Of a stretch of 64,000 nucleotides of DNA, positions 21,729-23,430 are shown in pieces. A program made the position numbers and the translations under genes. Origin of the DNA: Spiroplasma attinicola (GTDB lineage: Bacteria; Bacillota_I; Bacilli_A; Mycoplasmatales; VBWQ01). The notes under the pieces were generated by a model that saw nothing but the letters and a program-made list of their open reading frames with translations, made no database searches and had not been told where the DNA came from. The stretch spans positions 496,001 to 560,000 of the forward strand of contig NZ_JAKQXY010000001.1 of the NCBI RefSeq assembly GCF_023509825.1, written 5' to 3'. The stretch's first letter is position 1. Each line of letters opens with the position of its first letter.

Positions 21729-21745
21729 TTTATTTTAAAGGATAA

Positions 21746-21808
21746 AAAAGCCCAACAGCTAGGGTTGGGAATGCGAAGGCTTACTCCTTCTTGAATAATT
21801 TAATTATA
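21746..21808 (-). ncRNA. Small repeated RNA cassette, copy 1 (candidate)
   Basis: Read on the minus strand: TATAAT (21803-21808), 10 bases, AAGAAGGAG, a hairpin GAAGG-AGTAAG-CCTTC-like (with GCGA variation), then a CCCAAC...GTTGGG stem followed by CTTTTTT, a typical terminator. The predicted transcript is about 50 nt and holds no ORF. The same order of parts recurs in three further copies. Could instead be a repeated minus-strand terminator with chance -10 boxes. Confidence 0.5.
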
Positions 21809-21944
21809 TCTTAAAAATATTATTTTTATCTTAATTTTTAATTTTCTTTATTATCAATCAAGAATTGGGAGTATACTTAACTATAAGTAGGTATTAAGAT
21901 AAAAGAGATTAGGGACAAATAAAATAATTGATAAAAAGGTATAA

Positions 21945-22007
21945 AAAAGCCCAACAGCTAGGGTTGGGAATCGGAAGGCTTACTCCTTCTTGAATAATAA
22001 TATTATA
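21945..22007 (-). ncRNA. Small repeated RNA cassette, copy 2 (candidate)
   Basis: Nearly identical to copy 1. The minus strand reads TGC-TATAAT (extended -10, 22002-22007), 10 bases, AAGAAGGAGTAAGCCTTCC, then CCCAACCCTAGCTGTTGGG and CTTTTTT. It lies 199 bp after copy 1 and 90 bp upstream of the first MazF/PemK-like gene, pointing away from it. Confidence 0.55.
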
Positions 22008-22096
22008 GCATTACTTTTAATAATATCTATTAAAATAATAAAATTTTTAAAAATATTTTTAATAAATTCTTAATTAAGAAATGGGGTAATTAATTT

Positions 22097-22684
22097 ATGA
22101 AAAATATTGTAAAATTTAAATGATATTGAAAAAAGTTTCGAAAAGGTTGTGGAATTAAAGTTGGATTAAAAGGTGATTTTGATAAAAATGGTCAACAAAA
22201 GTATCGGCCAGGAATTATTACTAAAGTTTATCCAACTCATGTTAAAGTTCAATTAATGAGTAGTCAAGCAAGTGAATATGATGCTTTTTCAATTAAGATT
22301 AATAATAAGATTCAATATATTAGACCAATTTATTTTCGAACAGTTGATATTAATGATGTAAAGTTTATGTGAAAAGATGAAAAAGGTGAGATTATTGAAA
22401 TTGATAAAAAGAGTGATTTTTTTAAAAAAGTTAGAACTATGGAGTATCAAGAATCACTTGAACAAGATGAAGGAGATCTAGATATGAAAGATGAAATGAT
22501 TAAAAATCAATCATTAGAAATTAAACAATTAAAAGATGATAAAAAGATAGAACGAAAAATAATTGAAAAATTAACTTTAGAAATTAAACAATTGAAAAGT
22601 AATCAAATTATTTTAGAAAATGAAAATGAAATCATTAAAAATCAACTAAAAGAACAAAATTTATCAGAATATGAAAATGAATAA
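22097..22684 (+). CDS. MazF/PemK-like protein with C-terminal coiled coil, paralogue A
   Basis: 195 aa, not firmly recognised. Residues 12-115 follow the layout of MazF/PemK-fold proteins: basic start KKFRKGCGIKVGLKG, then YRPGIITKVYPTHVKVQLM, then KIQYIRPIYFRTVDINDV. Residues 130-195 are a charged coiled coil with heptad-like repeats (LEIKQLKDDKK, LEIKQLKSNQ). Two to four UGA Trp codons confirm the code. Paralogue B, 125 bp downstream, shares the first about 125 residues but lacks the coiled coil. If it is a MazF-type ribonuclease, no classical antitoxin gene is beside it. Fold assignment is inference from residue pattern. Confidence 0.6.
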
Positions 22685-22713
22685 ATATAGTTATAAAAAT
22701 AAATTGACATTTA

Positions 22714-22757
22714 AGGTTGGACGTTTGAAATTTTGCTCCTTCTTAAAGAATATTATA
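22714..22757 (-). ncRNA. Degenerate copy of the small RNA cassette
   Basis: The minus strand keeps TATAAT (22752-22757), a 7-base gap and AAGAAGGAGCAA, but the downstream part (TCCAACCTTAAATG) has lost the closing stem and T tract. It lies between the two MazF/PemK-like genes. Confidence 0.4.
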
Positions 22758-22809
22758 GTAAGAATATTTTAATGTTAAAAAATAATTAAAGAAAGAAAGG
22801 TAAATTATT

Positions 22810-23187
22810 ATGAATAATATTGAAAATCCAAAATGAGATTTAAAAAAAATGCGAAAAGGGCGAGGGATTTGAGTAGCATTAAAAGATAATCTTGATGAAA
22901 ATGGTAAGCAAAGATTTCAACCAGCAATTATTATTAAAGTTTATCCAAATCATCATCTTCTAGTTCAAATAATGACTACAATTTCAAATAAATCTGATTA
23001 TTTTTCAATTAAGATTAATAATAAAATTCAATATGTTAGACCGATTTATGAACGAACAGTTGACGAAACTGAAATTATCAATGTTTGAAAAGATGTTAAC
23101 GGTAAAGTAATTAAACTTGATAAAAAAAGTAGATTTTTTCGTAAAGTTGCTATGATGAAATATCAAGAAGCTCTTAAAGATGACTAG
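22810..23187 (+). CDS. MazF/PemK-like protein, paralogue B
   Basis: 125 aa. It shares with paralogue A the blocks RKGRGIWVALKDN, FQPAIIIKVYPNH, FSIKINNKIQYVRPIYERTVD and a closing KYQEALKDD. It ends where A continues into its coiled coil. AGAAAGG at 22792-22798 is a good ribosome binding site. Like A, the pattern of a glycine-rich first strand followed by RP/QP-a-i-i-k-v resembles MazF/PemK toxins, but the catalytic residues cannot be fixed without alignment. A cassette copy follows 30 bp after the stop. Confidence 0.6.
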
Positions 23188-23217
23188 TTTAGATATGAAA
23201 TATCAAAATTAGCCATA

Positions 23218-23280
23218 AAAAACCCCAACAGCTAAGGTTGGGAATGGGAAGGCTTGCTCCTTCTTAATAAAAATATTCTA
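23218..23280 (-). ncRNA. Small repeated RNA cassette, copy 3 (candidate)
   Basis: The minus strand reads TGC-TAGAAT (23275-23280), 9 bases, AAGAAGGAGCAAGCCTTCCC, then CCCAACCTTAGCTGTTGGGG and TTTTTT. It also would terminate minus-strand transcription; from the plus side it ends the MazF/PemK-like unit only weakly. Confidence 0.55.
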
Positions 23281-23430
23281 GCATGTTCATTTTGAAAAGT
23301 CTATTTAAAATAAGAAAAAAATATAATGTTACTTATTTATTTTTTAAGAAATGATATGAAAATATCATTTTTTGTTTTATTTATTGAATTACTTATTTAT
23401 AAAAAATATAAATTAATATTAAATAAATTA

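Follow-up and report, generated by a model that had tools for sequence, protein, structure and literature searches.

We analysed a 64,000-nucleotide (nt) stretch of the Spiroplasma attinicola genome, in which short repeated units on the minus strand surround two genes for toxin-like proteins. The whole stretch is called the window here, and gene and unit coordinates given without a locus label refer to it. Three near-identical elements (21746-21808, 21945-22007 and 23218-23280) and a worn fourth copy (22714-22757) lie on the minus strand where the initial annotation had placed them. It had also described a -10 box in each copy and a hairpin and a terminator with T6 in the good copies, and the sequence and a terminator scan confirmed this. 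The -10 boxes are TATAAT (21803-21808), TATAAT (22002-22007), TAGAAT (23275-23280) and, in the worn copy, TATAAT, and AAGAAGGAG begins 7-10 nt after the box in all four elements. The three good copies share one order on the minus strand: the -10 box, 9-10 nt, AAGAAGG AGUAAG CCUUC, the CCCAAC..GUUGGG terminator and six U. In DNA letters, each has a GAAGG/CCTTC hairpin, then a CCCAAC/GTTGGG stem and T6. Small RNA (sRNA) unit 1 (21744..21808, minus strand), whose hairpin reads CAA-GAAGG..CCTTC, matched covariance model R1 with 20.2 bits. sRNA unit 2 (21943..22029, minus strand; 20.0 bits) has a -35-like TAGATA, 16 nt and a TG-extended -10 box, followed by the same hairpin and terminator, and it is the divergent partner of toxin-like gene A (22097..22684, plus strand; 195 amino acids, code 4). 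The worn unit (22714..22757, minus strand) keeps the -10 box and AAGAAGGAG, and its second stem and terminator are broken; its minimum free energy is only -3.7 kcal/mol and it is absent from the R1 matches. It lies upstream of toxin-like gene B (22810..23187, plus strand; 125 amino acids, code 4), a paralog of gene A. sRNA unit 3 (23218..23303, minus strand; 16.6 bits) has a weak -35-like TAGACT, the TAGAAT box, the hairpin and the terminator, and is located downstream of gene B and upstream of ecfA1. The three good units are direct repeats around genes A and B. The initial annotation had overlooked both this flanking of paralogous genes and the linkage to a gene for a MazF-fold protein, which explains the probable role of the RNA.

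The terminator scan recovered all three minus-strand terminators; counting both strands of 1.9 kb, it found four, where shuffles predict 0.2. In DNA this rich in A and T, promoter-like sites occurred at chance level (16 found, 16.9 expected). Therefore, the claim of a promoter rests on relatives, and the window alone cannot settle transcription. The initial annotation had regarded the elements as mini-transcription units for a short non-coding RNA. This is supported: the predicted RNA has two or three hairpins and a length near 50 nt, or 60-80 nt in the majority of relatives. In its own genome, the short sequence class is represented only by the window copies; there are also three longer-class copies around another toxin on contig C2 and one copy by the toxin at C1:401724. 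At locus L046 of this genome, a toxin-like gene has RNA units on both sides in direct orientation (1329-1403, 2069-2149 and 2225-2305), which resembles the window cluster and suggests duplication and loss through recombination between RNA units. Rfam contains no family for the unit; there was only a sub-threshold match to GadY (E value 0.85).

By nucleotide search, convincing additional copies were confined to the same GTDB family; homologs of gene A, from a protein search, turned up at those places too. These relatives belong to the Spiroplasma ixodetis clade: S. ixodetis SHM, symbionts of Danaus chrysippus and Drosophila atripex, Spiroplasma sp. AdecLV25b and the metagenome-assembled genome A83_bin3_2. 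We read 260-380 nt upstream of each homolog. Nearly every homolog is accompanied there by a unit transcribed from the opposite strand and away from the gene. About 30-120 nt separate the -10 box of this unit from the start of the toxin gene. Such divergent RNA units lie directly upstream of homologs in seven genomes of the clade. Clear exceptions among the inspected homologs were L031, with a transposase-like gene upstream, L032, with a re-modelled hairpin, and L049, a spurious match to the coiled coil only. The promoter of the RNA strand is exactly TTGACA-16/17-TATAAT in 12 of 23 loci and near-exact in others; no promoter match of this quality was found on the toxin strand of the same 23 loci. 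Many loci have ATTATATAAT as their -10 region; being palindromic, it supplies a -10 box to either strand. Copies that had lost the -10 box and kept the terminator, which would make the elements simple terminators, were not the pattern in relatives; these keep the -10 and -35 boxes, and their terminator stem changes in sequence but still pairs.

The linkage was also examined in a blind test. A covariance model was built from eight long-class sequences, and six plasmid loci, fetched later through the protein alone, were searched with it. All six, which were outside the model, carry the RNA just upstream of the toxin-like gene and divergent from it (E values 7e-17 to 7e-4), and no further match was found in these loci. 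Matches in G042 and G095 (E values 0.03-0.06) were discarded, as they look like chance when the sequence is read. Of 295 genomes sampled across the phylum, only 2 gave a match to the protein profile, and both belong to the window's own GTDB family. No relatives were found among viral contigs, and none among phages. The RNA also occurs without the gene. G001 has two RNAs and no toxin match anywhere in the genome; the ysxC locus has two RNAs and a toxin in G002, and a single RNA without a toxin in G001; and the RNAs of L064 and L085 have only toxin remnants beside them. If toxins decay first, such orphan antitoxins are expected.

Compensatory changes conserve the fold of the RNA, and its stems covary strongly. 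In the majority of relatives, the RNA is 60-80 nt long with three stems. Stem 1 (GUACAG..CUGUGC) is followed by a linker containing AA, then by stem 2, whose loop is UAUAG-like, and by the terminator. The window copies form a shorter class without stem 1. Folding of single sequences gives the same stems in nearly all RNAs. Among 25 distinct sequences, 72 double-change cells were observed versus 20.9 +/- 4.3 in shuffles and 6-24 in slid controls, in an alignment fitted to the covariance model, which favours this result. Both sides are changed at 16 of 20 pairs in the same set, and the six plasmid RNAs alone also covary (14 versus 4.3). Stem 2 changes from GAAGG/CCUUC to GGGAG/CUCCC and to GGUUC/GAAUC in a compensatory manner, and a GAGGG form is also seen in relatives. 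The initial annotation had read AAGAAGGAG as an exposed Shine-Dalgarno-like 5' end. This reading is not supported: the motif is one side of stem 2, and relatives have GGGAG, GAGGG or GGUUC there, with compensatory changes. A Shine-Dalgarno decoy was rejected for the same reason, as the stem-2 sequence varies, and the likeness is incidental. The predictions gave nested stems only, and no tandem-repeat transcript was seen: there is one unit per terminator, and each extra copy is a unit by itself, with a -10 box of its own. That the units are only transcription terminators or insulators between genes is suggested by the terminator being the best-conserved portion of the window copies. However, the adjacent promoter is kept, two further stems covary and the linkage is tight to one gene family; we rejected this explanation as extremely unlikely.

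The covariation also bears on a mechanism resembling type I toxin-antitoxin systems, in which the RNA would act not by binding a protein but by pairing with the toxin mRNA or through transcriptional interference from the divergent promoter. As in type I systems, a small RNA lies on the strand opposite the toxin gene. The shared promoter region is divergent and partly palindromic, and a toxin mRNA read through from upstream genes, if there is one, would hold the complement of the RNA. However, the RNA points away from the toxin, and its interaction energy with the start of the cognate mRNA (-35..+60) is no better than with non-cognate or shuffled sequences (mean -3.8 versus -4.4 kcal/mol), so that 14 cognate pairs showed no complementarity above that of shuffles. 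Compensatory changes keep the fold and not complementarity, and the orphan RNAs described above persist without a linked toxin. Type I toxins, moreover, are small membrane peptides, whereas the protein here has a predicted ribonuclease fold. We consider a type I-like action unlikely.

The protein encoded by gene A is not recognised by sequence-based family models. Pfam, NCBIfam, PADLOC and a sequence profile search of the PDB gave no convincing family and no match to PF02452, and only a weak match to a MazF-like family of PHROG was found (E value 0.0086). The AlphaFold2 model (mean predicted local distance difference test score 87) has seven strands and then helices. Foldseek against the PDB gave MazF as top matches (E value 2.4e-4, probability 1.00), with CcdB, Kid and the type III toxin CptN (4rmo, E value 0.014) lower, and a second structural aligner (VIA) aligned 103 residues with MazF (Z 10.6, root-mean-square deviation 2.8 A). 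From this model we confidently predict a MazF/Kid/CcdB fold for the protein, followed in gene A by a C-terminal coiled coil. Near-invariant residues include RP at the start of the second strand, which we take, from motif and topology, to be the place of the catalytic Arg of MazF. This Arg (Arg37) is intact in gene A and kept in 21 of 23 aligned members; the exceptions are gene B, which has Gln and is without the coiled coil, and L115 on plasmid pSAP_1, which has Cys and whose RNA has a terminator mismatch. The pairwise ratio of nonsynonymous to synonymous substitutions of gene B is near 1 with several relatives versus 0.2-0.5 for many other pairs, and gene B is probably a dead toxin. A further homolog, L039, is truncated and without the Arg, and its RNA is without a clean terminator. 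In homologs at L029, L032, L036, L041, L045, L048 and L111-L114, a near-identical C-terminal tail, KNxNxG, follows the variable coiled coil across different paralogs.

In MazEF, PemIK and Kis-Kid, which are type II systems and share the toxin fold and the positions of the RP...(S/T) motif, a protein antitoxin is encoded next to the toxin. We found no conserved protein neighbour able to be MazE and no conserved small open reading frame beside the toxin in L050-L060; the RNA stands in the antitoxin position. An unlinked MazE-like protein could still be the antitoxin, with a minor, regulatory role for the RNA, since MazF relatives are usually type II (Pfam PF02452) and unlinked antitoxins are possible. 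Besides having no conserved protein neighbour, the examined plasmids carry the toxin and the RNA among otherwise variable genes, and we judge this explanation very unlikely. Where a MazF-fold gene has no MazE neighbour and that place is taken by a structured RNA with a strong promoter, a toxin with an RNA antitoxin is the best reading. Alternatively, the protein may need the RNA in order to act, for example as a scaffold, a guide or a substrate for processing, without the RNA being an antitoxin. The co-conservation suits any ribonucleoprotein partner, and the proteins have a variable C-terminal coiled coil. However, MazF-fold ribonucleases are not known to require an RNA cofactor, and orphan RNAs without the protein would be useless cofactors. 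RNA partners known for the MazF fold are antitoxins (PMC5086642). Such a non-antitoxin role is quite unlikely.

Taken together, comparison of the sequences and the structural model points to a unit of promoter, hairpin(s) and terminator that lies opposite the toxin gene and points away from it, has covarying stems and is linked to one family of proteins predicted to have the MazF/Kid/CcdB fold. We propose, with a probability of roughly two in three, that the elements encode a short structured RNA that serves as the antitoxin for the MazF-fold protein of the gene lying back-to-back with them. Functionally, the best explanation is a toxin-antitoxin system akin to type III, whose antitoxin is a divergent, non-repeat RNA with a promoter of its own. 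The RNA would be produced constitutively from its strong promoter, and the toxin gene would have only a weak promoter, located in the -10 region common to both, which is often a palindrome. Once folded, the RNA would bind the MazF-fold protein and block its ribonuclease site, as type III antitoxins do. When the plasmid or locus is lost, the RNA supply would end and the stable toxin would be freed. The window cluster would then be a partly decayed array in which toxin A has intact motifs, toxin B is probably dead and its RNA worn, and three RNA genes are intact, their number having likely grown by recombination between direct repeats.

Several points weigh against this proposal. The RNA is not a tandem-repeat transcript, and the stems predicted for it are only nested ones. 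Direct binding of the RNA by the protein is inferred only from the predicted fold shared with ToxN/CptN and the absent complementarity between RNA and mRNA, and the RNA could serve the protein in some other way. The system is decaying in places, as there are truncated or frameshifted toxin genes in the clade. The lost Arg coincides with damaged RNA in gene B, L115 and L039, but these decayed cases are few and were picked post hoc.

Type III systems comprise a toxin with the MazF/Kid/ToxN core fold and an adjacent non-coding RNA antitoxin, a repeat transcript cut by the toxin (PMC5086642). RNA and toxin are on one strand under one promoter, with a terminator between them, tandem repeats and pseudoknots (PMC5086642). 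The gene A model has this core fold, and the sequence supports a structured RNA gene, a putative antitoxin, beside the toxin. As in ToxIN, CptIN and TenpIN, a MazF/Kid-fold protein is found beside a structured non-coding RNA ending in an intrinsic terminator, on plasmids and chromosomes, with a promoter layout favouring the ratio of antitoxin to toxin. In contrast to their tandem-repeat transcript processed by the toxin, the Spiroplasma RNA is a single unit of two or three hairpins per terminator, encoded opposite the toxin gene from a consensus promoter of its own and ending in a terminator that points away from the toxin, and its toxin is unrecognised by Pfam family models. Since the RNA is neither on the toxin strand nor repeated, the unit is not filed as ToxIN, CptIN or TenpIN; it may well act in the same way.

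A Pfam PF02452 search of the relatives revealed another MazF family in G000, G002, G006 and G007, with loci at G000:C2:69597-70079 (L103), G002:C4:101122 and G006:C1:570678. In L103, L104, L105 and the truncated L108, the PF02452 gene follows a promoter, a structured RNA of a different conserved kind and a terminator, all on its own strand, and the RNA occurs twice in tandem in L103. Its motif is UCUACAUCUUUCACAUUUAUGUGA.UGCU.AA.UGUA, and one stem shows compensation (CACAU/AUGUG to CGCAU/AUGCG). Like the family of genes A and B, this family combines a MazF-family toxin that ends in a coiled coil with a structured RNA that has a promoter and a terminator; it differs in that the RNA is upstream in sense and unrelated in sequence. 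The order promoter-RNA-terminator-toxin is the classical type III order, and from its sequence the second family looks type III-like. Its sense RNA supports the idea of RNA-guarded MazF-fold toxins in the clade. The family was not found in the plasmid collection, a profile-profile comparison of the two toxin families gave nothing with these shallow alignments, and no description of this second MazF-RNA pair was found in the literature searched. Short MazF-family genes without an evident MazE or a recognisable upstream RNA unit are also present in L096 (G000:C1:114933) and L089 (G001:C1:106863).

The system of genes A and B is found in one copy in each of seven matching Spiroplasma plasmids, often near ParA. 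The plasmid setting, ParA nearby in several cases and a single copy per plasmid fit a role in plasmid maintenance. In plasmids, or in regions derived from them, ParA-type ATPase genes precede the toxin-like gene at L055 (2060-2842), L060 (1708-2127), L111 (2182-2955) and L112 (2173-2979). Furthermore, many loci of the S. ixodetis clade have a eukaryote-like HMG-box gene (Pfam E value 9e-20) immediately or a short distance downstream of the toxin-like gene: L053 (3518-3790), L054 (3524-3796), L055 (3549-3770), L056 (3542-3814), L058 (3514-3744), L059 (3561-3782), L112 (4023-4244) and L113 (4287-4559). HMG-box genes are proposed candidates for reproductive manipulation (PMC13240588, PMC13085286), and linkage to a maintenance module may explain their persistence.

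A literature search, mostly without subscription journals, found no paper on RNA antitoxins of Spiroplasma or on divergent RNA antitoxins of ribonuclease toxins. The chances are about even that this is a distinct architecture, in which a MazF-fold toxin is neutralised by an independently promoted, divergent, non-repetitive RNA on plasmids of heritable, insect-associated Spiroplasma, beside the sense-order MazF-RNA pair; MazF-fold toxins would then have acquired RNA antitoxins repeatedly in this lineage. If this is true, RNA antitoxins are not bound to the same-strand repeat-array layout used in searches for type III systems (PMC5086642), and further RNA-guarded MazF-fold toxins may have been overlooked. 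It would also provide a mechanism by which plasmids are maintained in symbionts of the S. ixodetis group; several of these plasmids bear HMG-box genes (PMC13240588, PMC13085286).
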